A DNA stretch of 64,000 nt, taken from positions 1-64,000 of the forward strand of contig SVEY01000013.1 of the NCBI GenBank assembly GCA_015057165.1, read 5' to 3'. Below, piece by piece: positions 44,669 through 64,000 of this stretch (its first letter is position 1; each line of letters opens with the position of its first letter). Origin of the DNA: Lachnospiraceae bacterium (lineage in GTDB: Bacteria; Bacillota; Clostridia; Lachnospirales; Lachnospiraceae). The notes below the pieces were generated by a model, which saw only the letters and a list, made by a program, of their open reading frames with translations, searched no databases and had not been told where the DNA came from. The position numbers and the translations under genes are program-made.

Positions 44669-45043
44669 ATGGGTGAAGTAAAGCGTAAACGAAATAGATC
44701 CGTCACTATCCGTATGAATGATTCTGAATATTCCGACTTCAAAAACAGAGTTAAAGAATCCGGACTCACAGAACAATCTTATGTCATAGATGCAATCCAA
44801 AAAGCCAAGATTACATCTAATGATGAAATTGTTGTTCTTAAAAATATAAGCAAAACATTTTCGGAATATGTAAAACAAGTCCGAGGAATCGCAACTAACA
44901 TTAACCAGATGGCACGTGTCGCCAACAGTCAAGGATTTCTTCCCGGGAGAAATACTCTTAATCAATTATCAAAAGATATTAGCGACATCCGAAAGGATGG
45001 TGAACAGGTATGGCAATTAATAAGGTCGTCAATACATCCGTGA
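44669..45043 (+). CDS. mobC: MobC-family mobilization protein
   Basis: RNRSVTIRMNDSEYSDFKNRVKESGLTEQSYVIDAI (RHH), VRGIATNINQMARVAN. Confidence 0.82.
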   Translation: MGEVKRKRNRSVTIRMNDSEYSDFKNRVKESGLTEQSYVIDAIQKAKITSNDEIVVLKNISKTFSEYVKQVRGIATNINQMARVANSQGFLPGRNTLNQLSKDISDIRKDGEQVWQLIRSSIHP

Positions 45044-46179
45044 AAAGTCATGGTGCTATGAACAATGTCTTGGAATATGTTCTTCAAGATGAGAAAATCA
45101 AAGAAGGCTATGTTACAGTTACCGGACCATATAATGAAGACGAAATTGATTACAAAAAAATATATCAGTCTTGGATTGAAGAAAAAAGGCTATGGGATAA
45201 AGATAATGGCAGGATGTATGCTCATAATATTATTTCATTTCATAAGGACGAAAAAGTAACGCCCTGTGAAGTTCTTGATATAGGGAAAGAATTTGCAGAT
45301 AAATTCTTCGATGGTCACCAATGTGTTATTAGCGTACACCAAGACAAAGATCACTTGCATTGTCATATCGTCACCAATAGCGTGTCCTATATAGATGGCA
45401 TGAAACTTCATCAGACCAAACACGATCTACAGAAGCAAAAGGACTTTACAAATAACCTCTGTCTTGAACGTGGACTTACAGTCGCAGAAAAAGGTCATCA
45501 CTTCGACGGTTCTGAAATTGCGCAAGGTGAAATAACATCTTGGAGCAGGGACAAATACAGCCTACTCACGAGCGATTCCAAGAAGAGTTATGTTGCTGAA
45601 TGTGCCATCGCCATAGTTAATACACTTCCTAATTCTCGTTCTCGAGATGATTTTATATCAGGCATGCAAAAACTTGGATGGGCTGTCAAATGGACTGATA
45701 ATCGCAAGCATATTGTCTATACAAATGAGAACGGGGATAAAGTTCGTGACACTAATATAGAAAAAACGTTTATCGGAATGAAAGCTAATAAGGAGGCTTT
45801 GGAATATGAATTTACAAGACAAAATGAAATCAAATCCGGAAGAATCAACTCAGAAAACCAAGACGCAGAACTCGACAGATATTATAGAGAAATCGAGTCA
45901 GCAGTTGGAGACAGCAGAACTACTGGGAAAGCAATCGGAAGCCATAAGAACTCTAAAGACGCAACTGGTAGAGCAAAGAATCGAATACGAAGAAGAGATT
46001 CAGGCAGTCACATCCGAGAATTCAAATCTAAAGAAAACACTGAAAGAAGTCGACAAAATAATACGCTCTCAAGACAAGCAAATCGCTCAATTCAAGAAAA
46101 ATTACGTGTCGCGGAAAGATTATGTGATTCTAAGCCACCAAAAATCATACGCACAAGAGAAAGCGAACTCAGCTTATAA
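45010..46179 (+). CDS. MobA/VirD2-type relaxase
   Basis: QCVISVHQDKDHLHCHIVTNSVSYIDGMKLHQ (HxDxxHxHxHIVxNSV three-His motif), N-terminal conserved region. Confidence 0.9.
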   Translation: MAINKVVNTSVKSHGAMNNVLEYVLQDEKIKEGYVTVTGPYNEDEIDYKKIYQSWIEEKRLWDKDNGRMYAHNIISFHKDEKVTPCEVLDIGKEFADKFFDGHQCVISVHQDKDHLHCHIVTNSVSYIDGMKLHQTKHDLQKQKDFTNNLCLERGLTVAEKGHHFDGSEIAQGEITSWSRDKYSLLTSDSKKSYVAECAIAIVNTLPNSRSRDDFISGMQKLGWAVKWTDNRKHIVYTNENGDKVRDTNIEKTFIGMKANKEALEYEFTRQNEIKSGRINSENQDAELDRYYREIESAVGDSRTTGKAIGSHKNSKDATGRAKNRIRRRDSGSHIREFKSKENTERSRQNNTLSRQANRSIQEKLRVAERLCDSKPPKIIRTRESELSL

Positions 46180-46324
46180 CAAGCGCATAGAGCTACAAAT
46201 TCTTTTAAAGGAGCAGAAGAAAAAATATACTGAAGACCTTGAGAAAAGGCATAAAATTGAGATTGGTCTTTTCGTGTATAGTGTAGTAATTACAATCGTT
46301 AATGCAATTATATTAATTTGCTAA
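45806..46324 (+). CDS. Coiled-coil protein with C-terminal TM, MobB-like position, overlapping the relaxase out of frame
   Basis: AAGGAGG ribosome-binding site just upstream of ATG 45806; 172-aa ORF ending in a hydrophobic segment. Confidence 0.65.
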   Translation: MNLQDKMKSNPEESTQKTKTQNSTDIIEKSSQQLETAELLGKQSEAIRTLKTQLVEQRIEYEEEIQAVTSENSNLKKTLKEVDKIIRSQDKQIAQFKKNYVSRKDYVILSHQKSYAQEKANSAYNKRIELQILLKEQKKKYTEDLEKRHKIEIGLFVYSVVITIVNAIILIC

Positions 46325-46382
46325 TGGATTCCCATGTAAATGAGGACGGATGTTGGTAATCCGTCCTCAAATCTTCTGATTA

Positions 46383-46526
46383 TTAATGAATCTTACGCCT
46401 TGTTTCCCCAGTCTTTTGATTCAACACATCACAAAAACTTCCCACCAGGTTTTGTTTTTCCGTTTGCATACGAAGATATGCCGTGTTCGTATAGTTATTT
46501 GTTGTTATAGCATTTGATATTGTCAT
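46383..46526 (-). CDS. Small ORF (47 aa), not in the supplied track
   Basis: Hand translation MTISNAITTNNYTNTAYLRMQTEKQNLVGSFCDVLNQKTGETRRKIH*. Confidence 0.35.
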   Translation of the reverse strand: MTISNAITTNNYTNTAYLRMQTEKQNLVGSFCDVLNQKTGETRRKIH

Positions 46527-46550
46527 GTTTTCCCCTCCATAACGTCTATA

Positions 46551-47666
46551 TCACATTCGTTTTTTATCCTGATTATACGTCCGTATCTCAAATAATTCTT
46601 CCATGGTTCTTTGTCTGGCATTATTTATGATTTGTTTTATTTTTTCTTCACTTAAATTCTTTGTCAGGCCTGCCTGCTGACGTATTTGTTCATCCGTAGA
46701 AAACTGGGAATAAGCTCTTGTTACGCCTGTTTGAAAATGTCCATCACACTCCAAAATATCTACCGCGCAATATGGTGGATCATTCAAATCTCTGCGTGTG
46801 ATATTTTCATAATTATAAACAACTGTTTTTAAATACCCTCTCAAGCTCTTTTCAAACTTTTTATCGTTTAAAGCTTTTATCAGAAGATTTTTATCAAGCG
46901 TAATACTCGGAATTCCAGGCTGTGAGAAGCCATCTTTGGTTTGATGAAACGAAAATTCAGACGATATATTATTCGTACCATTTAAATCATCTATCCGAAA
47001 ACTAACATTTGGATAATCCTTACAAAGATCCATATATAGTTCCAATTCATTTGCGTATGTTTTTCCCTTTTGTTTTTCACTAACTCGTTCTAAAACGTCT
47101 GCCAGTTTATTTGCATCCAATGATTGTTCATACGTATTTGGATTGCCCAAATAAGCCTCTGCCATTTGTCGCAGCATTTTAATCCAATCCGTTCTTACGT
47201 TATAACCATCCACGCTCTGTAAATCCGGAAAGTCACCAAAATCTGATGCATTTTGCCCATATACTTTCATCTTATTATATGAACCGAACGTTCCCCGATC
47301 CGTCATTCCGTTTTCATCCATATAAGCAGAAAACGCAAACATCTCAACCGCAGACGCGTTTCTTGGATCCACCTCGTTCACATGAACATCGTAATATCTT
47401 TGTTCACCCCCATAGTTTACGGAGATTTTTATAATAGGATCCTCCTGCGTCGACATATCAGAATCAAACGCAGCCATTCCATAACTCATAGAATCCGAAT
47501 ACGGAAGCATCGTTAATGCCAGCGCATTTCCTTTCGCATGAGATTTTGATTTTTCCGCTGCTGCAGACATTCCGGAATAAAAATCGTCGATCTTTTTATT
47601 TCCGGTCTTTTCATAGGTTAATCTTTCATTTGTAACATTTGATACCGTATTTAATCCTACTTCCAT
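46551..47666 (-). CDS. Hypothetical IME cargo protein (DUF6033-like by recollection)
   Basis: Complete 371-aa ORF, no signal peptide. Confidence 0.5.
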   Translation of the reverse strand: MEVGLNTVSNVTNERLTYEKTGNKKIDDFYSGMSAAAEKSKSHAKGNALALTMLPYSDSMSYGMAAFDSDMSTQEDPIIKISVNYGGEQRYYDVHVNEVDPRNASAVEMFAFSAYMDENGMTDRGTFGSYNKMKVYGQNASDFGDFPDLQSVDGYNVRTDWIKMLRQMAEAYLGNPNTYEQSLDANKLADVLERVSEKQKGKTYANELELYMDLCKDYPNVSFRIDDLNGTNNISSEFSFHQTKDGFSQPGIPSITLDKNLLIKALNDKKFEKSLRGYLKTVVYNYENITRRDLNDPPYCAVDILECDGHFQTGVTRAYSQFSTDEQIRQQAGLTKNLSEEKIKQIINNARQRTMEELFEIRTYNQDKKRM

Positions 47667-48181
47667 TATAACTTACCCCCTATTGCTCTTTCATGTTCTT
47701 CTCTCGTTCTATAGAATTAAATTTCCATAAAAAAAGAGAGTGTTTCTACACCCTCCATGGTTTATATCATAAAATAGCCAGTCCTTAGCTTCATACGTTT
47801 TGTATATCGGATATTTTATCTGTGATTTTAACCCTATTTTTATTTTTTTTCAATTATTATTCCTTTTCAAAGAGAACCCCTCATTCAAATACCACATAGC
47901 TTCTTCTTCCTCTATCGTCGTTTCTTGGGTCATCTGCCCTTGCAAATTAAACTTGCTTATAATTCGAATAACCAAATTCTATATTTTGCTTAAGATTAAT
48001 AGGAATTTCAAACTTTTCCAGATGATAGCAACCGGCAATGAAAATGAGTTTCTTCCGTTCCCTTAATATATAAGTACTAATCACACATTGTTTTCGATTA
48101 GTTCCCTTAAAAAAATTATATAAACCATTATATATATGCTGTCAACTAAGAGATTGTAAATGTAGCTTTTTTTAGCTCCTA

Positions 48182-48310
48182 CTTTCATTTTGCCTCGCAC
48201 ATTTTACATAAAAATACAGAGGCGTCAACTCTGCATTCGCACCACCTATGGTGGCTACGGAGTTGACTCCTCTGTATTTTTACGTTCCAGGCGGACAAGC
48301 AAAATGAAAG
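48182..48310. repeat. 129-bp palindromic intergenic element in the IME
   Basis: Outer ctttcattttgc/gcaaaatgaaag; inner taaaaatacagaggcgtcaactc vs gagttgactcctctgtattttta (22/23 paired); apical ccacc-tat-ggtgg. Confidence 0.7.
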
Positions 48311-48442
48311 GAAAGCTATTGAATTACACATTCACACAGGAATTGTGTTCAAACCATACTCCTTTCTCGAAACAGCTTTATCGCATCTTCATCAATATCA
48401 ATCTTTCCTGCAGAAGACATAAATTAAAAGATTGTTTTAGTA

Positions 48443-48643
48443 TCATTTAGTATCATCATAGATTGATCTGGAACCTATATCCTTAAGCCTCTTTCTCTTT
48501 TCCTCAAGGCTGGCAAATAGTTTTTTACTTTTCTCTATACTTGCTTTTAATTTATCCTCATCAACTCTATAATCGTTTGACGGAACAAACAATTGTAATG
48601 GTTCAAAATTATACTTCATATCATTCAATGCTGTATTACTCAT
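48443..48643 (-). CDS. Small hypothetical protein
   Basis: 66-aa ORF immediately downstream of the JAMM-like gene. Confidence 0.5.
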   Translation of the reverse strand: MSNTALNDMKYNFEPLQLFVPSNDYRVDEDKLKASIEKSKKLFASLEEKRKRLKDIGSRSIYDDTK

Positions 48644-48654
48644 ATTGAACCTCC

Positions 48655-49245
48655 TTAACTATAATACAAGCCCACTTCACTACATTTTGCCAAAAAAGAC
48701 AAGGCAGACAAATACAAATCTTTGGTTGATGACCCTGGTTCTAATTCATGTATACACTCTTTAAATAATTCAAAGGCATCTTCCAAATTATAATTATCAT
48801 CTCTCATTAAATAATGTATCTTCCCTTGATTAGACACCACAACCATAACAGCAATCTTTGTATATTGTAAGAAAAAATGTATATCTTGCAAAGAAAAAGT
48901 TTGAGTAGATGGATGATTATGTAATACTACCACCGCTACCGGCTTTTCAGAAACAATCAAGTGATTAGATAACGTATCCGACAAAATATCGATTTCGTGT
49001 TCGCTTCCGAAAGCAACTCCGACTTCATCAAGTGGATTCTCACGGCTCAAATCACATGTAAACGCAACCTCATTACTATCATTTTCATCCTTAGAAACCA
49101 AAAGTAAATCCATTGCAAGATTCCTCATTATTTCGTTCTTGCTATCGTCAAAGCCTTTGTACTTAACGAATGGGACTTTGCTAATTGCAATATCTGTAAT
49201 ATATACTTTTTTGTCTTTTCTCTTTGCTTGTTCCAATTCCGACAA
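48655..49245 (-). CDS. JAMM/MPN (RadC-like) domain protein
   Basis: VVVLHNHPSTQTFSLQDIHFF resembling the RadC HNHPSG..S..D metal site. Confidence 0.6.
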   Translation of the reverse strand: MSELEQAKRKDKKVYITDIAISKVPFVKYKGFDDSKNEIMRNLAMDLLLVSKDENDSNEVAFTCDLSRENPLDEVGVAFGSEHEIDILSDTLSNHLIVSEKPVAVVVLHNHPSTQTFSLQDIHFFLQYTKIAVMVVVSNQGKIHYLMRDDNYNLEDAFELFKECIHELEPGSSTKDLYLSALSFLAKCSEVGLYYS

Positions 49246-49362
49246 GTGAATAATCTCCGTTCTTTATATCAACTCTTCCAATATTATTATCTTTACCTAC
49301 TACCACATATATTATAACATATATCAATTGATAATAGGATAGTATTATAAAATGTTGTCTCC

Positions 49363-50010
49363 CTAAGAATCCAATTCATCTTTCATCTGTTGTAATTTAT
49401 CAATTTGCTTCTGTAATTGAGCCTTCCTATGTGCCTTATCGGTTTCATCAACCAAGGCTTTAGGATATGTCCACTGCCACATACGATATGACATCATTAT
49501 TTCTTCACGTTCTTCATCTGATGTTGCCGCTTCAAGCTGTGATTTTGTCTGAGTGTAAACCTTATACCACTCTTCCATACGCGAATACATTTCTTCCGTG
49601 TGATTAGCCGAAAGGCAAAATCTCGGTGGCTTACCATCTTCCTGCTCTTCTATTTCCATATTGAAAAGATGCTCTAACTCGAACATAGCATACATAGCGC
49701 CATCATATGTTGTTATGTCAGGATCCATAATGGCATATGCACTAACGCCTAATGCATTCGCTATATTAATAAGCATATCGGTCTTAGGCTTTCTAATGCC
49801 ATTCTCATACTTTTGAACTCTATCCGCATTTAAGCCGATAAGTTCACCGAGTTCTGCTTGTGACAGATTCTTGGCAGTTCTGATACTACGTATTCTCCTG
49901 CCCATCCGCTTTGCAGTGCTATTGGAATCAAACGCTTCTACATCATTTCTTAATTCTGCGTTAAAAAGCATCTTATCTATCCTCCGATTTACCAAGTGTT
50001 TTCTACTCAT
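49363..50010 (-). CDS. XRE-family transcriptional regulator
   Basis: RRIRSIRTAKNLSQAELGELIGLNADRVQKYENGIRKPKTDMLINIANALGVS. Confidence 0.9.
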   Translation of the reverse strand: MSRKHLVNRRIDKMLFNAELRNDVEAFDSNSTAKRMGRRIRSIRTAKNLSQAELGELIGLNADRVQKYENGIRKPKTDMLINIANALGVSAYAIMDPDITTYDGAMYAMFELEHLFNMEIEEQEDGKPPRFCLSANHTEEMYSRMEEWYKVYTQTKSQLEAATSDEEREEIMMSYRMWQWTYPKALVDETDKAHRKAQLQKQIDKLQQMKDELDS

Positions 50011-50223
50011 CTACAATGATTTTATCATAGTTTTATACAAATAAAAAGAACAAAAATGAGCTTTACAAGAACAAAATTTTATAGAATCACAATTTTGTGC
50101 TTGACGCTGACAAAATATCATGATATATTATTATAAGCACTAATACGTGATTGTAAATCACGATAACGTTATGCGTACATTTTACAACATTTCACATCAA
50201 TTACCAAAGGGAGGAAAACAGTT

Positions 50224-50427
50224 ATGAACGAATTATTAAAAGATTACCCACCTGTATTAAGCGTTGAACAAGTCGCTGAGATCCTCGGCGTTGGCAAACA
50301 ACTTGTCAGGAAATCAATTGCTTCTAATGAATTAGGTGCCATAAAACTTGGCAGACTATATAAGATACCTAAGACAGCATTGATTGAATTCTTGAATCAC
50401 ACTCTTAATTACGGGAAAGGCGCATAA
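50224..50427 (+). CDS. xis: Excisionase-family DNA-binding protein
   Basis: LSVEQVAEILGVGKQLVRKSIASNELGAIKLGRLYKIPKTALIEFL. Confidence 0.85.
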   Translation: MNELLKDYPPVLSVEQVAEILGVGKQLVRKSIASNELGAIKLGRLYKIPKTALIEFLNHTLNYGKGA

Positions 50428-50428
50428 T

Positions 50429-51661
50429 ATGGGATTAGTCAAAAAAGAAAAAGGTAAGAACTGGTACTATCAATTTGAATACATAGATGCTAACGGTAGG
50501 AAACGTGGCAAAAGTATCAATACTAACGTACCTAAGAACCACACATCAAAACGAGAAATGTCCAGAGCAGAAGCAATCGGTGTTCAGGCAAAGAACGAGT
50601 TCTTATGTGAACTTGAGAACGAGAAGCTTCGCGTTGTCGGTATCAGGAATGGTATAGATTATTCCTTATACACCATCGCCGATTATTCTGCTCATTGGAT
50701 GGACGAGATACGCCACGAGGTTCGAGACAGCACTGCTTCGTCTTATCAGCAGGAACTTAACGCACACATTATTCCCATACTGGGAGAAGTTAAACTTAAA
50801 GACTTTAACCTTAATACGGTTAAATATTTCTTCGACTTGGAATTCAACGACTGTCTTGATAAGATGAAAAATAATAAGTCGAACTATATGCAATCTATTA
50901 AGAAGCATCTTAACACCTTATCAAGTATGCTTGACTTTGCTGTTGAGGAAAATGCAATTATCGAAAATCCGGTACCTAAGATAAAGAAGCGTCTGCTAAA
51001 AAAGGTCAACAAATATAAAGTAGTCCATGAGGTCGAACCATATTCCTGGTCTGAACTTATGGCTCTTAAAGAAATAACACTTGCTTCAAATACTCATATT
51101 GAAGCAGCTGTTATTATTGCCATTTACACCGGACTTAGACGAGAAGAAGTTCTCGGACTGAGATGGCAGGATGTTGATTTTGACAACAGATTATTACGCA
51201 TCCAAAACACATGCACTAAGGTCGGCACGAAGATAGTGTACGCCGAAGCCACTAAGACGAGACAGTCAAGGCGAAAAGTTCCGATGATGGATGACCTATA
51301 TGATTATCTGTTAGTATTAAGGGCTCGTCAGAATCACCTCAGAAACTTCTTAGGCGAAGGATATATTGATACAGACCTTATATGCGTATGGGATGACGGC
51401 AAGCCAATTAAACCCGATAATCTTTCCAGACGTTTTACAAAACTCATTGAAGATAATAATCTTCGAAAGATAACCTTTCATGATCTCAGACACTCATTCG
51501 GTAGCGTAATATTTAATTATACCGGGGACATCAAAGTTGTCTCAGATCTTCTTGGTCACTCTAACATCAGCACTACATCAGACATATATGTTAAGACTGA
51601 TGAGATGCACAAAAAGGAAGCACTTAGTAACTTTAATAACCAAAGTGGAGCCATCAAATAA
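50429..51661 (+). CDS. int: Tyrosine recombinase/integrase
   Basis: TGLRREEVLGLRWQDVD, HDLRHSFGS, LLGHSNISTTSDIYVK catalytic motifs. Confidence 0.95.
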   Translation: MGLVKKEKGKNWYYQFEYIDANGRKRGKSINTNVPKNHTSKREMSRAEAIGVQAKNEFLCELENEKLRVVGIRNGIDYSLYTIADYSAHWMDEIRHEVRDSTASSYQQELNAHIIPILGEVKLKDFNLNTVKYFFDLEFNDCLDKMKNNKSNYMQSIKKHLNTLSSMLDFAVEENAIIENPVPKIKKRLLKKVNKYKVVHEVEPYSWSELMALKEITLASNTHIEAAVIIAIYTGLRREEVLGLRWQDVDFDNRLLRIQNTCTKVGTKIVYAEATKTRQSRRKVPMMDDLYDYLLVLRARQNHLRNFLGEGYIDTDLICVWDDGKPIKPDNLSRRFTKLIEDNNLRKITFHDLRHSFGSVIFNYTGDIKVVSDLLGHSNISTTSDIYVKTDEMHKKEALSNFNNQSGAIK

Positions 51662-55729: not shown

Positions 55730-56788
55730 TTAATATTTGAAGTCCATATTCTCGAAGTTTTGTTCTACTTCATTTGTCTGCATTTCACTTTTTACCCGAA
55801 CTTCTTTTGTAACCTTACTATTATCTGGCTTTGCACACACATCCTTGCTTACTTTTACTTCTTTAGGCTTTCTATTAATCTCCTGCTGATTCTTTAAATC
55901 AAAGGCTTCTGCCATTACTGACATATTGCCAATATTATCACCTACAGAGTCCATAATTGAACTTGGAATAAATACTTTCGTAGAATTTCCATTTGCAATA
56001 TCTTTCATAGCCTCAATACTCTTCATACGAAGGATTTGGTTAGTAGGCTGCGCTTGATTAAGTCGCTCTAAACCTTGAGCCTCAGCCTCATATACAAGCT
56101 CTATTGACCTTGCTTTACCTTCAGCAAGTGCGATTTGCGCATCTCTCTCAGCCTCAGCAGCAAGTACTTTAGCTGCCTTATCACCTTCAGCTCTCTTAAC
56201 AGCACCTTCCTTGTGAGCTTCTGCTTCAAGAACAGTTTGTCTTCTCTCACGCTCTGCCCTCATCTGCTTACTCATTACATCTAAGATATCCTGTGGTGGC
56301 TGAATTGTCTTAACTTCCACTCTATTAATCTTAATTCCCCATTTATCAGTTGCCGCATCAAGTTCTGCCTCTAGTTGTGAATTAATTTGATCTCTACCAG
56401 AAAGTGTTGTATCTAAGTCCATTGTACCAATAATATTTCTAAGTGTAGTAGCACAAAGGTTCTCAACACCTGCAAGTGGATTCTCAACGCCATAAGTAAA
56501 GAGCTTTGCATCTGTAACTTTCATATAAACTACGGAATCAATATGCATAGCAACATTATCTTTCGTAATTACACCTTGTGGTGGAAAATCAAGCACTTGT
56601 TCCTTAAGTGACACTCTATTAACAACAGCATCAATAAGTGGTGCTTTAAGATGCACACCCGCTCCCCATTCTGCGTGAAACTTACCAAGTCTCTCAACAA
56701 TACTAATCTGTGTCTGTGGCACAATTCTAAGTGACATACCAATCAATATAAGAATTATTACCACAATAATACCAAGTACAATTAACAT
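55730..56788 (-). CDS. SPFH/band 7 (stomatin/QmcA-like) protein
   Basis: IVPQTQISIVERLGKFHAEWGAGVHLKAPLIDAV, GVENPLAGVENLCATTLRNIIG. Confidence 0.92.
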   Translation of the reverse strand: MLIVLGIIVVIILILIGMSLRIVPQTQISIVERLGKFHAEWGAGVHLKAPLIDAVVNRVSLKEQVLDFPPQGVITKDNVAMHIDSVVYMKVTDAKLFTYGVENPLAGVENLCATTLRNIIGTMDLDTTLSGRDQINSQLEAELDAATDKWGIKINRVEVKTIQPPQDILDVMSKQMRAERERRQTVLEAEAHKEGAVKRAEGDKAAKVLAAEAERDAQIALAEGKARSIELVYEAEAQGLERLNQAQPTNQILRMKSIEAMKDIANGNSTKVFIPSSIMDSVGDNIGNMSVMAEAFDLKNQQEINRKPKEVKVSKDVCAKPDNSKVTKEVRVKSEMQTNEVEQNFENMDFKY

Positions 56789-56899
56789 AATATCCCCCCT
56801 ATCAAATATTTGTAACTAAGATTATTGTACATAAAATCATGGGAAATGTACAATAAAAAACGTAAATACGCTATAATACGCATTTACGTCATCTTGAAA

Positions 56900-56945
56900 A
56901 GTGAGACACGGGGGAATCGAACCCATACTATATGCCCTTCTAACC
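56900..56945 (-). other. tRNA 3'-end-like fragment, candidate prophage attachment site
   Basis: Minus strand gggcatatagtatgggttcgattcccccgtgtctca: GTTCGATTCC T-loop core with only part of a T-stem; no full tRNA. Confidence 0.35.
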
Positions 56946-57023
56946 CTTGATATTGCGTATTTTTCAAAAATCTTGGTGCAATTTTGGGTGCAATTCTCAC
57001 CATTAGTCTCAATCCATAGTTTC

Positions 57024-57356
57024 CTAACTAACCAATTCCTCAATCGTTACTCTAAGTGCATCAGCTAATCGCTTCAAATTGTCATAAGATGCACCACTTA
57101 ATTTCCTTGCTCCTTGCTCATAGGCTTGGATTGTTCTAACTGATATTCCAGATGCCTTCGACAAGTCTGATTGCGACATTCCTCTCCAACTCCTAACTTC
57201 CCTCAAGCCGACATCTGCTACCTCATAGAAATCTTCTTCATAGATGCCTTCTTCCTTGTCTTTCGCCTCGAAGAGAGAGAGAACCTCTGCTCCCTCGTCA
57301 TAACTTTTCACTTGTTCAATGATATTTCCTGCCTCTCTATCCCTAATCACTATCAT
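57024..57356 (-). CDS. XRE-family regulator
   Basis: LREVRSWRGMSQSDLSKASGISVRTIQAYEQGARKLSGASYDNLKRLADALRV. Confidence 0.85.
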   Translation of the reverse strand: MIVIRDREAGNIIEQVKSYDEGAEVLSLFEAKDKEEGIYEEDFYEVADVGLREVRSWRGMSQSDLSKASGISVRTIQAYEQGARKLSGASYDNLKRLADALRVTIEELVS

Positions 57357-57368
57357 AATTTCATCTCC

Positions 57369-57554
57369 TTACCATTCTACGTCTTTTCCGTTCTCGTCAA
57401 TAATTGCAACACCACCACCATTGAACTCGTCAAACTCGTTCTCGTGTTCCTCGCTAAAGTCCGATGCAAAATTGATTGCATCTGCTACATCATCAAATGT
57501 TGCCAATGTCTCTCCGTCTCTTCTGCCTGCTACCCAAATTACTTCATACTTCAT
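57369..57554 (-). CDS. Small hypothetical protein
   Basis: 61-aa acidic ORF co-directional with the XRE gene. Confidence 0.45.
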   Translation of the reverse strand: MKYEVIWVAGRRDGETLATFDDVADAINFASDFSEEHENEFDEFNGGGVAIIDENGKDVEW

Positions 57555-57596
57555 ATTCTTCCCTCCTGTTCTGGAAGGGCTTTGTTGCCCTTCCTC

Positions 57597-57773
57597 TTAT
57601 CTGCATTGTCTCCTTGCATCTTTCATACATTCTGCTTTAGTATATCCGAATGCTATTGCATTTCCCCACTCGTTGCGAGCAACCCACTCGGTAACCATTC
57701 CGTTAGCCTTTGCCCTTTCATTGTAAGGGTCATAACTCTGAGTTTTCTCAAAACTTAAATCCTTAATCTTCAT
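57597..57773 (-). CDS. Small hypothetical protein, not in the supplied track
   Basis: Hand translation MKIKDLSFEKTQSYDPYNERAKANGMVTEWVARNEWGNAIAFGYTKAECMKDARRQCR* (58 aa) with upstream aggagga. Confidence 0.55.
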   Translation of the reverse strand: MKIKDLSFEKTQSYDPYNERAKANGMVTEWVARNEWGNAIAFGYTKAECMKDARRQCR

Positions 57774-58023
57774 ATCTTTGTCCTCCTTTGTTGTTCCCTC
57801 TTCTTGATTCTAATATACTACTATTGTAGTATAATGTAAAGCCTTTTCAACAAATTCGTGCATCTTTGCCACCTTGCACAATTTCCCCTGTGGTCTTTTG
57901 TATATATTATACTACTATTGTAGGATAGTGAGAACATAAAAAATAAGAGAGGCTTAGTTCCCCTAAAACCCCTCCCTTTGTGCGCTATTGTATCACAGAA
58001 TTTTAGATGTGTAAATAAAAAAG

Positions 58024-58054
58024 AGCCGGTCTAGGAAAATATCCTAGGCCGGCT
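58024..58054. terminator. Hairpin terminator
   Basis: agccggtctagga / tcctaggccggct inverted repeat. Confidence 0.65.
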
Positions 58055-58104
58055 TATATTATTAACCCTACCACCACGCATGGCTATAGTGATAAGGCTA
58101 ATAT

Positions 58105-58431
58105 CTAATGTCTGTCATACAGATATTCGTTCAGGTCGCTCTTGGCTTCCACCATTTCTTCTGTATTATTACCGTCGATACCATGCGACAACAACGCTCC
58201 TATTGACTTCATTAGCACCTTAGTGCCTTCCTCCAAGTCTTTTATTCTTTCGCTATCATCTGTCAGCTGATTTCTCAGGTCCCTAACTTCCACCTCTAGA
58301 GTACTTATTCTGGTCTCGTGTTGAAGATGTGGCTTATTTAGCTTATCTTTGAATAAGATAATCCTTTCGACGATATTAAGGATTGTTAGCACCAAGCCGA
58401 GGCCCAGTACCAGTATCTCTGTTGTAATCAT
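58105..58431 (-). CDS. Phage membrane-anchored coiled-coil protein
   Basis: N-terminal TM followed by a heptad-rich segment, in the lysis module. Confidence 0.5.
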   Translation of the reverse strand: MITTEILVLGLGLVLTILNIVERIILFKDKLNKPHLQHETRISTLEVEVRDLRNQLTDDSERIKDLEEGTKVLMKSIGALLSHGIDGNNTEEMVEAKSDLNEYLYDRH

Positions 58432-58619
58432 TATTCATATGACTCCTTCACAAAAGTATTGTATACCGGGCATTCGTCCAGTGATAAGTTCATGTGCTTA
58501 TTAAGTATATGCGTATAGTAATCTGCAGCTGCTCTCTTGTCACTGAATACTGTGACAGTAGCTTCTGGATCACCTTTGTCATAATAGCTTACTACCCATA
58601 CTCTATCCATGATCTGCAC
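58431..58619 (-). CDS. Small phage hypothetical protein
   Basis: 62-aa ORF, start/stop contact with neighbour. Confidence 0.45.
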   Translation of the reverse strand: MQIMDRVWVVSYYDKGDPEATVTVFSDKRAAADYYTHILNKHMNLSLDECPVYNTFVKESYE

Positions 58620-58646
58620 CGCCTTATTTCAAAGTACAAAACTTAA

Positions 58647-59681
58647 TTATTGTACGCCTACGCAGAATTTAATCTCGTTAGCGTTGATTCTATCTTGATT
58701 GTTGTAGCAAGCCTTCATGCCATCGCCATAAGTACCGGGTCTCTCAATACCATTCGGAAAGCATCCGTTCATGTAAGCAATGATTTCCATTGCTGTGATC
58801 ATGAACTGTGTTTCACCGTACTCAATATAGTGGTTGTCAAGTGCGGCGTCAGACTTTTCACCAAAATCTTTATCCTCCGCAAGTCTCTCACTGAAGCAAT
58901 TTCTAACATAAGCATTGTCTCCACAGTAATCAAGATTCATTGCGTGTTGCAAAACAGCAATTCTCATGGCTTCGGTTTCCGGGCCGAGTTTGCCATCAAC
59001 TTTGATTTTGCTATGGCCAACGAAAGCGTTTGCTTCAATCTGGCCTTTTCTTATACATTCTGATCTGAATTGAGCGAGGAAATTCCAATCAATATTCTGT
59101 TCCGGCTGATTCTCCACGATGGGTTGAATTTCTGCAGGAGTTGTATAGTCAGTCTGAATATTAGAGCCTAATATACCATTAACAATAGCAGCTCCCATTG
59201 AGTCGGGGTTATAGAGATTAGCATCATCCCAGTTATCGCAGAAGCAACACTCGATTAAGAGAGCCGGAGACTTGGTCTTTTTTAAGACATAAAGACCATC
59301 CCTAACCTTTACGCCTCTATTAGCAAAGCCAAGCCCTGCAATAGAATTAACAATATTCTGAGCTGCATCGTTAGAAGCTGAAGCAGAACTATACACCAAC
59401 ACTTCTGTTCCGTGACCATTTCCATCTGATGCGTTGAAATGAATTGATATATCAAGATCAACAGCGTTAGCGTTACACTTTGCCACTATCTGATACAAGT
59501 TATCATTTACGCTTGGCGCATCATCGACAGTACAATCGAATACTTCATGACCATTTTCTCTTAAGAGTCTTATAACGACATCTTTTACCTGCCTTGCCGC
59601 AGTTGACTCTGTGAAGACTCCACCGGCACCACAGCCGATGTGTCCGTCTGCATTGTGACCTGCATGCACATTAAATCTCAT
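58647..59681 (-). CDS. N-acetylmuramoyl-L-alanine amidase endolysin
   Basis: Amidase_3-like NVHAGHN, DLDISIHFNASDGNGHGTEVLVYS, LLIECCFCDN. Confidence 0.85.
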   Translation of the reverse strand: MRFNVHAGHNADGHIGCGAGGVFTESTAARQVKDVVIRLLRENGHEVFDCTVDDAPSVNDNLYQIVAKCNANAVDLDISIHFNASDGNGHGTEVLVYSSASASNDAAQNIVNSIAGLGFANRGVKVRDGLYVLKKTKSPALLIECCFCDNWDDANLYNPDSMGAAIVNGILGSNIQTDYTTPAEIQPIVENQPEQNIDWNFLAQFRSECIRKGQIEANAFVGHSKIKVDGKLGPETEAMRIAVLQHAMNLDYCGDNAYVRNCFSERLAEDKDFGEKSDAALDNHYIEYGETQFMITAMEIIAYMNGCFPNGIERPGTYGDGMKACYNNQDRINANEIKFCVGVQ

Positions 59682-59755
59682 ATAATCGCCTCCTAATTCT
59701 AATAAATCACTGTTTTTCTGAAATATAGGGTAAAATATATATTCCTTATTTCATT

Positions 59756-59974
59756 TTAATCTTCGTTGTTAGTAGATTCCGGATCCGGAATTGTTGCTAT
59801 GCTGGTAGCAACAGAGAGTATCGCTGCTAATGCCGATGCAGATAATACCTGGATCCAGTCCACATCGCTTATAACGAATGCAGTTCCTATTACTGCAACG
59901 AAAGTCTGGAAAAACGTCTTGATACTACGCTCTGCAACCTTGAGCCACCAGCTCTTATTAGTTAACTTACTCAT
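59756..59974 (-). CDS. Phage holin
   Basis: KVAERSIKTFFQTFVAVIGTAFVISDVDWIQVLSASALAAILSVATSIA, two TM segments, next to the amidase. Confidence 0.75.
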   Translation of the reverse strand: MSKLTNKSWWLKVAERSIKTFFQTFVAVIGTAFVISDVDWIQVLSASALAAILSVATSIATIPDPESTNNED

Positions 59975-59976
59975 AA

Positions 59977-60081
59977 TTATTCACCTGCCTTTTCCATCGC
60001 TTTTAACTCTATCACTTGCACTATCTCTAAGATTAGTTCGAGAAGCTCCGGGATTGTCATATCATATAAGTCTTTATCCAT
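59977..60081 (-). CDS. Very small phage ORF (34 aa)
   Basis: Hand translation MDKDLYDMTIPELLELILEIVQVIELKAMEKAGE*. Confidence 0.35.
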   Translation of the reverse strand: MDKDLYDMTIPELLELILEIVQVIELKAMEKAGE

Positions 60082-60083
60082 AT

Positions 60084-60209
60084 CTAACCTATAATGTAGT
60101 TATATTCATCCTGAGTAATAGTGCCGGCATCAACCATCTCTTGGAGCTTCTTTTTTGTTACTTTACCCTTTTTATAGAGTCTTTTTAGACTCTCAACCAA
60201 TGTCCTCAT
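60084..60209 (-). CDS. XkdX-like phage protein (41 aa)
   Basis: Hand translation MRTLVESLKRLYKKGKVTKKKLQEMVDAGTITQDEYNYIIG*; matches the XkdX pattern. Confidence 0.6.
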   Translation of the reverse strand: MRTLVESLKRLYKKGKVTKKKLQEMVDAGTITQDEYNYIIG

Positions 60210-60210
60210 T

Positions 60211-60474
60211 CTACAGCACCCCTTCCTCTATCAACTCTTCTGTATATGCGTCTATTGCTTCAGACGAGTCTATCTCTTCAATGCTCTTAAGCATCTCATA
60301 TTCTGATACAGTGATGATCCTGCTTTCGCAGACATAATCTGTATATGCTTCCATATCCTCGGTAGCTTCGTGATGCTCTTCTTCAATGTTGCGCCTCTGG
60401 ATATAAGTTTCCGGCGATATCAATTGAAGTTCACTAGGCCGCTCTGCAGAGCGTTCTTCTTTCCATGCTTTCAT
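60211..60474 (-). CDS. Small phage tail-region protein
   Basis: 87-aa acidic ORF overlapping the end of the RT gene. Confidence 0.5.
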   Translation of the reverse strand: MKAWKEERSAERPSELQLISPETYIQRRNIEEEHHEATEDMEAYTDYVCESRIITVSEYEMLKSIEEIDSSEAIDAYTEELIEEGVL

Positions 60475-61597
60475 TCTTTGTCCTCCTTGATATAATCTTC
60501 TTCATCGAGCCTATGTTTACATAGGGCTTAATCTCACATAGATAACAGTCATAAGTATCTGTGCATTTGAACCATCCCATATAAGAGATGATCGCACACA
60601 TATGTTTTGAATATACAAGTTTATTCTCTTCTCTTCGTCTCTTTATTCTTTTGGCAAGTCTCGTTGCATGAATAAGGATCCCTTTTCTGATAGTAGTTAT
60701 ACCTCTACCGAAAGCGAATCCCATAAAATCGATACAACGGCCAATAGTCCGTTTACTCTTGTGATATACAAATTTTGCAACTTGCCAATTGTTCTTTAGT
60801 TTCAACCGGAATCGTCTTCCGATGAACTTCTTAATCTCTATTAGTGCTTCATGTAGCCGCTTCTTATTGTCGGCCATAAAGGTAATGTCATCCATATATC
60901 TTATGTATATATGGAAACCTAACTTTTCATACATAAACCAATCGAGAGGCTCTAACAAGTAATTAGCAAGCCATTGGCTTATATAAAATCCAAGCGGAAT
61001 ACCTTTCTTGAATCCCTTCAGGCATAGCTCGATTATGTATAAAAACCATTCATCCTTAATTCGAATGCGAAGCTCCCTCATCAAGATAGGAAGTCTTATG
61101 CTGTCATAGAAATGTCTAATATCAGCTTTAGTAAAGTTTCTTATACCTTTACCATGTCTAATCCAACGCTCCAACCTTCTTTTAGCCATATGCGCGCCAC
61201 GTTTCGGAAAACTACCGCAGGAATACGGATATGATGTCCGAGTAATTATTGGCTCTAACACCAAAATAATTATGTGATGAAGCCATTGCTCATGGATTTC
61301 CGGCATGTATATCTTTCTTTCCTTACCATGCTCATAGATAATCCTTGGCGTTCTCTTTCTCGGCTTATAAGCAAGCTCCGGATTAGGAACTTCTACGCCT
61401 TCCGGTTTTGTGTTTAGTATCATTAGATACATCATATCGACTTCTTCATCTAGATGTTCGTCGATATATATTATTTCTCTTCTTGTTGTTTTTCCTTTTC
61501 GTAACTTTTTGTATGCTAGTCTAATAAGATCCTTGTCTAGCATCTTAGAATACAGATATTTATATTGTTTCTTGCCTTTAGTTTCAAAGTAGTTCAT
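60434..61597 (-). CDS. DGR-type reverse transcriptase
   Basis: FTKADIRHFYDSI, GIPLGFYISQWLANYLLEPLDWF (LGxxxSQ-like motif of DGR RTs), IYIRYMDDITFMA catalytic YMDD; no maturase domain; adjacent TR/VR. Confidence 0.93.
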   Translation of the reverse strand: MNYFETKGKKQYKYLYSKMLDKDLIRLAYKKLRKGKTTRREIIYIDEHLDEEVDMMYLMILNTKPEGVEVPNPELAYKPRKRTPRIIYEHGKERKIYMPEIHEQWLHHIIILVLEPIITRTSYPYSCGSFPKRGAHMAKRRLERWIRHGKGIRNFTKADIRHFYDSIRLPILMRELRIRIKDEWFLYIIELCLKGFKKGIPLGFYISQWLANYLLEPLDWFMYEKLGFHIYIRYMDDITFMADNKKRLHEALIEIKKFIGRRFRLKLKNNWQVAKFVYHKSKRTIGRCIDFMGFAFGRGITTIRKGILIHATRLAKRIKRRREENKLVYSKHMCAIISYMGWFKCTDTYDCYLCEIKPYVNIGSMKKIISRRTKNESMERRTLCRAA

Positions 61598-61790
61598 AGT
61601 TCTATAAATATAAGATAGTTTTTTCTTCTATCTCCTACGCACAGGCAGGTGCGACCGCTTTACCGTGCGCCCTGTATCGGAATAATTACCACTCCCCTAA
61701 CCAATAAATGGCGGATAAGACGTGTTTCAACGCCCAGAGGTGTAATTGAATGAAGTCTACATTGGGTTAATATTGTCTTGGATAGAATTA

Positions 61791-61901
61791 GGACGCGCCG
61801 ATGTTCCAGTTCGCATTCGTCGAGACATTGTTCAAATTCAGCGCGCCGACGCCATCAATGAGGTCATTGTTGCAATTGCCGAACCGAATGGCCACCGCCG
61901 T
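61791..61901 (-). repeat. DGR template repeat (TR)
   Basis: 111-bp near-copy of the VR in noncoding sequence between RT and target gene; reads in target frame as AVAIRFGNCNNDLIDGVGALNLNNVSTNANWNIGAS. Confidence 0.93.
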
Positions 61902-61990
61902 ACCGAACGGACGCCGCCGTACAGTCGTAGCTTCATCCCCTAGTTTACATAGTTACAAAAATTTATTGTGGGGGAATGCCCCCACACCCC

Positions 61991-63241
61991 CTACGCCGCA
62001 TCTGGAGATGCGCCGACAGGTGGTAGCAGAAGAACGGACGCGCCGACGTTCCAGTACGCAGTCGTCGAGACATAGTTCAAAGACAGCGCGCCGACGCCAT
62101 CAATGAGGTCACCGTTGCAAGCGCCGAACCGACTGGCCACCGCCGTTATCGTGGCGTTGACCCAAAGACCATCGCATCCACCTGTTGATGATGTTCCTCC
62201 ATAAGGCGGAACAGGTATCGTTCCAAACTTTTCAACAACAGCGTACTTATGCGGATAGTTAGCACTTGCTGCAGCTAATTGAATACCTGTGTCTTTATAT
62301 GTTGTTGCCGGTGTAGTTATATCGTATTTATAGTTAGGAGACACGTATACCCTTCCGTTAACACTCTGAGTATATGGATCTCTCTGCCACTGCTGCCATG
62401 AGCCAAGTACGACAGAATGAAGTATCTTGTTAAGATGCTTCTTATCGTCACTTCCAGTTCCATAAAACTGACCGCCACCAACAACCGCATTGGCAAGTAC
62501 ACCATAAGTAGGAGACAGCGACGCGTCATATCCGTAGCAATTACCATAACCATACTTATTCTGGATATCTGAGGTCTTGCCCCACAGAATAAGGAGGTCA
62601 TGAATAGTGTTGATAATAGCACCGCCAAGGAATTTAGCTCTTGACGAGAATGCATCAATAGCGGCCTTCTCCTGTGCCGTTGTCTTACCATATACAGGTT
62701 GAGTACCTGATACAGACATCATTTTGTCATTAACGATTGAACCGTAGAACATAGGGAGCCATACGCCTTCAAGCTCATTATCATCAGAGTCAATAAAGCC
62801 TACTGGCTCGAAGCCATCTCTTGGAGTAAGAGAAAACTTAACATATCTATCACTTCCTACGATATACTCTTTCTTATATATCTTCTGAAGCCAAGAGAAA
62901 GCACCACCGTCATATGATGTATTGGCTACATCTGAAGCGGTCTCTCCGTCAACCTTTTTAGTATAATCCGTAGAGGACAGCTCATAGTCAACATAACCGT
63001 CGCTCTTAACCATATAAGGCTTGTTATTCTTAAGAACCGGGAACTCAGACCAATCTCCGAGAGAAAAGCCACCACCCATAGTAATAGTTATAGGGCTATA
63101 TGCCTTATTAAGACCGATATAGTCAATCCTCTCATCCGGATCTAACACGTCCATATGCTCAACAAAGCCATATACATTTTCTTCGTTAAGTATTTTAGAT
63201 ATCTCATCCACAGCGTACTGTGCTGCCACAAAATCGCTCAT
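61991..63241 (-). CDS. DGR target: phage tail/receptor-binding protein with C-terminal variable domain
   Basis: Immediately downstream of tail-fibre gene; C-terminus AVASRFGACNGDLIDGVGALSLNYVSTTAYWNVGAS is the VR. Confidence 0.88.
   Translation of the reverse strand: MSDFVAAQYAVDEISKILNEENVYGFVEHMDVLDPDERIDYIGLNKAYSPITITMGGGFSLGDWSEFPVLKNNKPYMVKSDGYVDYELSSTDYTKKVDGETASDVANTSYDGGAFSWLQKIYKKEYIVGSDRYVKFSLTPRDGFEPVGFIDSDDNELEGVWLPMFYGSIVNDKMMSVSGTQPVYGKTTAQEKAAIDAFSSRAKFLGGAIINTIHDLLILWGKTSDIQNKYGYGNCYGYDASLSPTYGVLANAVVGGGQFYGTGSDDKKHLNKILHSVVLGSWQQWQRDPYTQSVNGRVYVSPNYKYDITTPATTYKDTGIQLAAASANYPHKYAVVEKFGTIPVPPYGGTSSTGGCDGLWVNATITAVASRFGACNGDLIDGVGALSLNYVSTTAYWNVGASVLLLPPVGASPDAA
61997..62012. 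promoter_or_regulatory. Small hairpin/cruciform just past the VR 3' end
   Basis: cgcatct-gg-agatgcg (or 6-bp stem with 4-nt loop), 23 bp from the VR end, overlapping the last codons of the target gene. Confidence 0.5.
62036..62146 (-). repeat. DGR variable repeat (VR)
   Basis: Aligned to TR at +245 bp offset without gaps; in the 110-bp core 11 mismatches, 10 at template adenines (coding strand). Confidence 0.93.
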
Positions 63242-63255
63242 TTCTTACCTCCTTC

Positions 63256-63981
63256 TTATTCCTGTAAATTCTTCGTGTAAGACTCTGATATGGTCTTACC
63301 GCTTGCCGTCTCAGTTATAACCGTTGTCTTGGTATAATAATAGTCATCGTCTTCCGGCGTAACGACCGTTGTTATAGTCTTAGTCGTTGGCGATGTATCA
63401 ACGAATGTTGTAACAGCTGTAATAGAGTTATCTGTATCCGTCTCCGTGATTTCTCTGTTACCTATCGCATCAAAATCTATTACCGTAGTCTTGTTGCATA
63501 GATTATAAACGTGCTCAAATTCCCACTTAGCTGTCTCATTCTTAAACTCTTCAAAGTCCGACAGTAAGGTATAAGCGGATTCATCTACTATAATGTTAGC
63601 CGATGCGTCGTTACTTAATGTCGTATACCAATCCTGCTCAATAGTCGAAGGTGTCGAACCATTGTAAGCAGGTAAGTAGTCAGGTGTGTTAGCAACAACA
63701 ATAGAATATAGAATCGGATCCGCGAGAGCATCCGATGCATCTTTCGCCCAGATACCTACCTCATTGATATAAAATCCGCTTGTTACTGTTACGTTGGTAA
63801 TCACCGCTTTCAACTTAACTGTAGTATCACTATAAGGTGCTACACTGTTAAATGGGAAAGACAATCTTTGGTTCTTCATGGCCGTCATAGCCTGAAGCGC
63901 CGTCTGTGTCTTTTCTTCAGCCGTGTAAGAACCATCTCCTACAGTTAAGGCCGTAAATTCTAACTTCTTACTGCCTGCCAT
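63256..63981 (-). CDS. Phage tail-collar/tail-fibre-like protein
   Basis: LEFTALTVGDGSYT..., VTVTSGFYINEVGIWAKDASDALADPILYSIV typical of phage tail-collar fibre proteins. Confidence 0.75.
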   Translation of the reverse strand: MAGSKKLEFTALTVGDGSYTAEEKTQTALQAMTAMKNQRLSFPFNSVAPYSDTTVKLKAVITNVTVTSGFYINEVGIWAKDASDALADPILYSIVVANTPDYLPAYNGSTPSTIEQDWYTTLSNDASANIIVDESAYTLLSDFEEFKNETAKWEFEHVYNLCNKTTVIDFDAIGNREITETDTDNSITAVTTFVDTSPTTKTITTVVTPEDDDYYYTKTTVITETASGKTISESYTKNLQE

Positions 63982-64000
63982 AACTTGTGCTAAGAGCGCC

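Follow-up and report, generated by a model that had tools for sequence, protein, structure and literature searches.

The diversity-generating retroelement (DGR) of the Bordetella phage BPP-1 is the prototype of these systems. Its target gene mtd, which carries the variable repeat (VR), is followed by a template repeat (TR), a spacer RNA and the gene of a reverse transcriptase (RT), with Avd encoded between mtd and TR, and changes in VR are directed by the adenines of TR. The spacer RNA folds, recruits the RT and uses an internal adenine to prime cDNA synthesis, and the system has been reconstituted in laboratory E. coli (PMC12875486). Across 948 surveyed DGRs, template T was mostly replaced by C (PMC6642488), and the target site of phage DGRs has been described as a G+C-rich stem of 7–10 bp with a 4-nt GRNA loop, 4–34 bp after VR (Guo et al. 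2011, PMC3240598). A further type has been reported in Faecalibacterium phages, among them FP_Epona (Cornuault et al. 2018, PMC5883640), in which genes for a collar fibre, an Mtd-like protein, the RT, a small ORF, XkdX, holin and endolysin follow one another.

We set out to characterise a cassette near the end of a 64,000-nt stretch of Lachnospiraceae DNA (contig SVEY01000013.1, positions 1 to 64,000), referred to as the window. Judging from its sequence, we propose with a probability of about 95% that the locus is a complete phage DGR of the Epona type, carried by a contractile-tailed prophage. As such it is one more phage DGR of a known type, and its added interest lies in the assignment of the spacer RNA and in an error signature. 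The features are listed below in order of transcription.

63256–63999, minus strand: tail-collar fibre protein gene (PF12571, phrog_7037), upstream of the target; its frame is open at the window edge
61991–63241, minus strand: target gene for a predicted C-type-lectin-like variable tail protein of 416 aa (phrog_5302 tail protein; model with TaqVP match)
62036–62146, minus strand: VR, a direct repeat with TR, at the 3' end of the target gene
62036–62046, minus strand: IMH-like 3' end of VR (TCGGCGCGTCC)
61967–61986, minus strand: G+C-rich inverted repeat TGTGGGGG-CATT-CCCCCACA, about 50 bp 3' of VR, with an 8-bp stem, a 4-nt loop and a T-rich tail
61791–61901, minus strand: TR, a direct repeat with VR; comparative core 61791–61899
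61791–61801, minus strand: IMH*-like G+C-rich 3' end of TR (TCGGCGCGTCC); TR/VR identity 0.99–1.00 in relatives, almost never altered in VR
61781–61787, minus strand: TTCTATC, a few nt 3' of TR, candidate partner strand complementary to GATAGAA
61626–61744, minus strand: full-length RT-4 RNA (Rfam RF03025) in the TR–RT spacer, scoring 117 bits against a gathering score of 73.5
61626–61632, minus strand: GATAGAA, candidate primer strand at the RT-4 3' end, with GATAGA unchanged in 35 of 35
60434–61597, minus strand: gene of the DGR RT, 387 aa, with YMDD and, in motif 4, LGFYISQ
60211–60474, minus strand: 87-aa ORF, a conserved part of the cassette but not Avd-like; overlaps the 3' end of the RT gene
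60084–60209, minus strand: XkdX-like gene
59756–59974, minus strand: holin gene (PF16945)
58647–59681, minus strand: endolysin (N-acetylmuramoyl-L-alanine amidase) gene (PF01520)

The cassette occupies the minus strand at the tail-module end of a prophage in a gut bacterium, and is read as tail-collar fibre, target with VR, G+C-rich inverted repeat, TR, RT-4, RT gene, small ORF, XkdX-like gene, holin and endolysin. The gene order is that of FP_Epona, with which it also shares the RT (61% identical), the 87-aa ORF (61% identical), RT-4 in the spacer and the apparent lack of Avd; the two differ in phage species and host and in the sequences of TR and VR. The nearest match of the window RT in a named genome was to a Lachnospiraceae MAG. 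With BPP-1 the locus has in common the layout of target with VR, TR, spacer RNA and RT, the adenine-directed changes, a structured spacer RNA and a homologous RT (24% identity over 347 columns, E 2e-21). It differs in that no Avd was found in the cassette and in that its spacer is RT-4, whereas that of BPP-1, our positive control, is the Rfam family Phage_DGR (RF03022).

The contig runs on for 18.9 kb past the window through genes for baseplate, tape measure, sheath, capsid, protease, portal and terminase, and stops there, leaving the far end of the prophage outside the contig. Because sheath, tape measure, baseplate, capsid, portal and terminase genes share the contig with the cassette, we assign the prophage to the contractile-tailed phages, and the initial annotation, which had placed the element in a prophage, is borne out by these upstream genes. 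At 56901–56935, beside the outermost prophage genes, the minus strand carries GGTTCGATTCC, which is similar to the 3' end of a tRNA gene and may be the attachment site; ARAGORN predicted no complete tRNA at this position. Relaxase and phage-type integrase genes at 45010–51661 perhaps belong to another mobile element of the host chromosome.

TR and VR align over 111 nt without gaps at 90% identity. Ten of the 11 mismatches fall on adenines of TR (A to G in four cases, to C in three and to T in three) and the remaining one is T to G; with 25 adenines among the 111 TR positions, this distribution has a hypergeometric p of 6e-7. TR is non-coding and occupies the gap between the target ORF and the RT, while VR forms the 3' end of the target ORF. 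In frame, TR reads TAVAIRFGNCNNDLIDGVGALNLNNVSTNANWNIGAS, with nine Asn, and VR reads TAVASRFGACNGDLIDGVGALSLNYVSTTAYWNVGAS; six of the Asn are changed (to A, G, S, Y, T and Y), and I is changed once to S and once to V. The coordinates, 111-bp length and strand that the initial annotation gave for both repeats all hold, as does its count of nine Asn codons of which six are altered. No additional copy of TR or VR was found in the 2.59-Mb genome. When relatives were compared, TR/VR identity fell from 0.99 to 0.22 one base beyond ...GCC/TCC at the 3' limit and from 0.99 to 0.08 at the 5' limit, and these sharp drops therefore delimit a functional core of about 109 bp.

A repeat pair that differs at TR adenines, by which a DGR is recognised, was present not only in the window but across its relatives, of which 75 loci yielded TR/VR pairs. 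In groups from IMG/VR and GTDB that share one TR, the variable VR columns comprised 219 of 430 at A, but 4 of 566 at C, 2 of 593 at G and 12 of 420 at T; some of these groups have identical TRs and identical 500-bp upstream flanks, yet their VRs differ, nearly only at TR adenines. Metagenome groups sharing a TR behaved alike (A 93/152, C 4/145, G 1/159, T 6/113). They include 19 human-gut contigs with a single TR, whose 18 readable VRs are all distinct, the 19th being truncated; this set amounts to a natural record of the error spectrum. Among 86 distinct pairs of relatives, the share of interior TR bases that were changed was 51.3% for A, 0.56% for C, 0.16% for G and 1.26% for T. Comparison of VRs across relatives had been named in the initial annotation as a check on its DGR interpretation. 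That interpretation is now supported by variation lying almost wholly at TR adenines under identical TRs and near-identical flanks, by the adenine-limited mismatches of the window itself, by the clade of the RT and by the match of the target model to TaqVP (see below). Two DGR copies with the same TR and VR were also seen on one contig (ODVR01000082.1), the result of a duplication or an assembly artefact.

While VR diversification in nature is thus evident for the relatives, the two contigs near-identical to the window phage that have complete VRs carry the same VR as the window. This would fit a once-working DGR that has become inactive in the window prophage, TR, VR and RT remaining in place and VR being static, but the near-identical contigs may stem from one host population. 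Moreover, the RT is intact with its motifs, the TR adenines are kept and RT-4 spans its full length; in L256, a close relative whose RT is 88% identical, VR is different and changed at adenines. We therefore regard inactivation as unlikely and infer from the intact parts and from its kin that the DGR is probably still active in the window prophage.

The few interior changes at T followed a pattern of their own. Across the 86 pairs, all 18 were T to G and none was to A or C, although some of these are common by descent and the independent events are fewer; loci bearing them include L008, L017, L018 and L022. This differs from DGRs at large, for which the 948-DGR survey reported a preference for T to C (PMC6642488). 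An overall excess of T changes in the pooled mismatches was considered and set aside: much of it came from the ends of the repeats, where the similarity of TR and VR simply runs out, and the interior retained only T to G. The simplest reading would be that the RT places dC opposite a template U, which would agree with A to G as the most frequent change at adenines.

The spacer between TR and the RT gene scored well above the gathering score of the RT-4 covariance model, and is a full-length member of that family. Of 20 relatives scanned, 19 also have RT-4 in the spacer, and in the remaining one the sequence breaks off before this point; FP_Epona and two relatives from metagenomes carry it there too. 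When 401 genomes, drawn evenly from the order, were scanned, six matches were obtained, the window's included, all beside a DGR-like RT; five of them had an adenine-biased repeat pair and the sixth locus was short. Other DGR loci carry RT-2, RT-14 or RT-18, which start from a few to about 45 bases from the TR end. These families were located at the 3' end of TR or shortly beyond it in L064, L066, L072, L074 and L091, and RT-18 also in L065, where no TR was detected. Because such RNAs follow TRs elsewhere and because the BPP-1 spacer also forms a family in Rfam, RT-4 very probably serves as the template-RNA scaffold of the Epona-type DGR clade.

Alternatively, instead of belonging to the template RNA, RT-4 could be a regulatory leader of the RT gene, acting for example in translation control. 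About 28 nt separate its end from the RT start, which a local hairpin adjoins, as might be expected of a leader. In L072, however, RT-14 begins one base after TR with the RT gene located upstream, which links this RNA to TR and not to an RT leader, and in BPP-1 the corresponding position is taken by the known scaffold and primer, which also has an Rfam family of its own. A leader role thus seems improbable, and we retain that of a scaffold. The minimum free energy of TR plus spacer, folded as a single strand, was no lower than that of shuffled sequences (z 0.31).

The Rfam listing consulted here reads only 'RT-4 RNA', without a function, and none of the papers searched mentions RT-4 by name; the connection of the family (RF03025) with TRs is drawn here. 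The family reportedly goes back to Weinberg et al. 2017, whose authors may already have stated a link to DGRs, and specialists may know of it. A function for RT-4, and probably for RT-2, RT-14 and RT-18, would provide ready-made covariance models for finding DGRs and their template RNAs.

The 3' end of RT-4 could also hold the primer. TCTAT stands just 3' of the repeat in 51 of 54 distinct TR flanks against 5 of 54 VR flanks, and is therefore kept for the template and not for the protein; in the form [N]CTAT[C/T] it follows TR in 33 of 35 cases. Pairing of this element with the GATAGAA at the end of RT-4 would put adenosines beside the TR end. The helix core hardly varies among relatives. The next base pair outward covaries: C-G (13), T-A (6) and T-G (1) stand against A-A (11), with 13 of 33 unpaired; the permutation test for this pair takes no account of shared ancestry, and only about two changes on the RT tree suffice for the C-G state. 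GAUAG can alternatively pair with a nearby UAUC, forming a local hairpin from the same bases. On balance, we give UUCUAUC:GAUAGAA roughly even odds of being the cDNA-priming helix.

The inverted repeat downstream of VR could be a DGR-type target hairpin or a terminator. Its 8-bp stem and 4-nt loop fit the dimensions given by Guo et al. (2011), but its loop sequence, CATT, differs from the GRNA that is the consensus in phage DGRs, and its distance of about 50 bp from VR lies outside the reported range. Similar G+C-rich tetraloop hairpins are present in part of the relatives, and a longer one occurs in the DGR-less locus L168.

From the parts of the cassette, the adenine-limited changes, the family-wide VR variation, the kinship of the RT and the presence of RT-4, all read from the sequences, we infer the following cycle. 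A minus-strand transcript would carry TR, a short linker and RT-4, which would fold and bind the RT. The GAUAGAA at the RT-4 3' end would pair with UUCUAUC just after TR, setting an adenosine beside the TR end, where cDNA synthesis on TR would start; in this priming model, the joint between RNA and cDNA would lie at an adenosine in or just after GAUAGAAGAAAA. The RT would misread about half of the template adenines, and the mutated cDNA would then replace VR in a retrohoming step guided by the common G+C-rich 3' end (IMH/IMH*) and perhaps by the downstream hairpin. The resulting changes in the C-terminal part of the C-type-lectin-like tail protein may alter phage binding. Extended to the other families, the proposal is more tentative, its odds falling slightly short of even: RT-4, RT-2, RT-14 and RT-18 would be scaffolds of different DGR clades, UUCUAUC:GAUAGAA would set the cDNA start of the Epona type, and the RT would have a second error signature, dC opposite U, seen as T to G.

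The RT itself had been described in the initial annotation by its YMDD and IPLGFYISQ motifs, both of which are present in the ORF at 60434–61597, and RT phylogeny had been named as a test of the DGR interpretation. We built a tree of the window RT, BPP-1 bRT, RTs adjoining a TR/VR pair and group II-type RTs from related genomes. A branch with 100/100 support parts the window RT, BPP-1 bRT and all TR/VR-bearing RTs from the group II-type RTs. The latter all have YADD, in contrast to the YMDD of the window RT, which also has the SQ in motif 4 typical of the DGR clade. Its best sequence match in the PDB was 8ub7, a chain of which is BPP-1 bRT itself. No group II intron RNA was detected at 56500–64000, while control locus L083 has one. 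Generic RT models do match the window RT (Pfam RVT_1, PADLOC RT sets and, below its cut-off, group_II_RT_mat), but given the tree and the SQ motif, the adenine-limited TR/VR changes across the family and matches to defence, retron and intron NCBIfam models that all stayed far below their cut-offs, it is hardly credible that this RT is of the retron, group II intron or defence-system kind, with a merely coincidental repeat pair beside it. In L067, from a genome of the same genus, a DGR-like RT gene is seemingly split, and a group I intron was matched where the first of the RT fragments ends.

No Avd was recognised among the cassette neighbours by Pfam bAvd, a model which does recognise the Avd of BPP-1. 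In the whole genome neither bAvd nor PF05635 gave a match, the control of this genome search being likewise silent. The Epona type apparently lacks Avd, and would thus offer a simple test of how cDNA synthesis can start without the known accessory protein. The 87-aa ORF, present in nearly every relative, is modelled as beta strands with one helix, has no PDB match and does not resemble the helical bundle of Avd. We considered it as a DGR-specific substitute for Avd but rejected this role, as the ORF also occurs in a locus without TR or RT, albeit a single one (L168); a helper role is possible. Over positions 1–1202 of L168, a target gene with a VR-like end, a long hairpin and the 87-aa ORF follow one another with no TR, RT-4 or RT between them, which looks like a clean loss (or absence) of the DGR cassette.

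The AlphaFold2 model of the target protein (pLDDT 85.8) had as its best match in the PDB the DGR variable protein TaqVP of Thermus aquaticus (5vf4, E 2e-10), at 13% sequence identity and a TM-score of about 0.46–0.50; Mtd of BPP-1 matched more weakly. Among viral models it matched tail collar fibre proteins, and the FP_Epona relative carries the annotation of a BPP-1-like major tropism determinant. The initial annotation held that the prophage diversifies its host-recognition protein. Diversification by the DGR stands for the family as a whole, and a receptor-binding role of the target is likely because of its tail position, its predicted fold and the Mtd-like annotation of its FP_Epona relative. 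In one relative (L056), the target reading frame contains an in-frame stop codon and is therefore broken or recoded.
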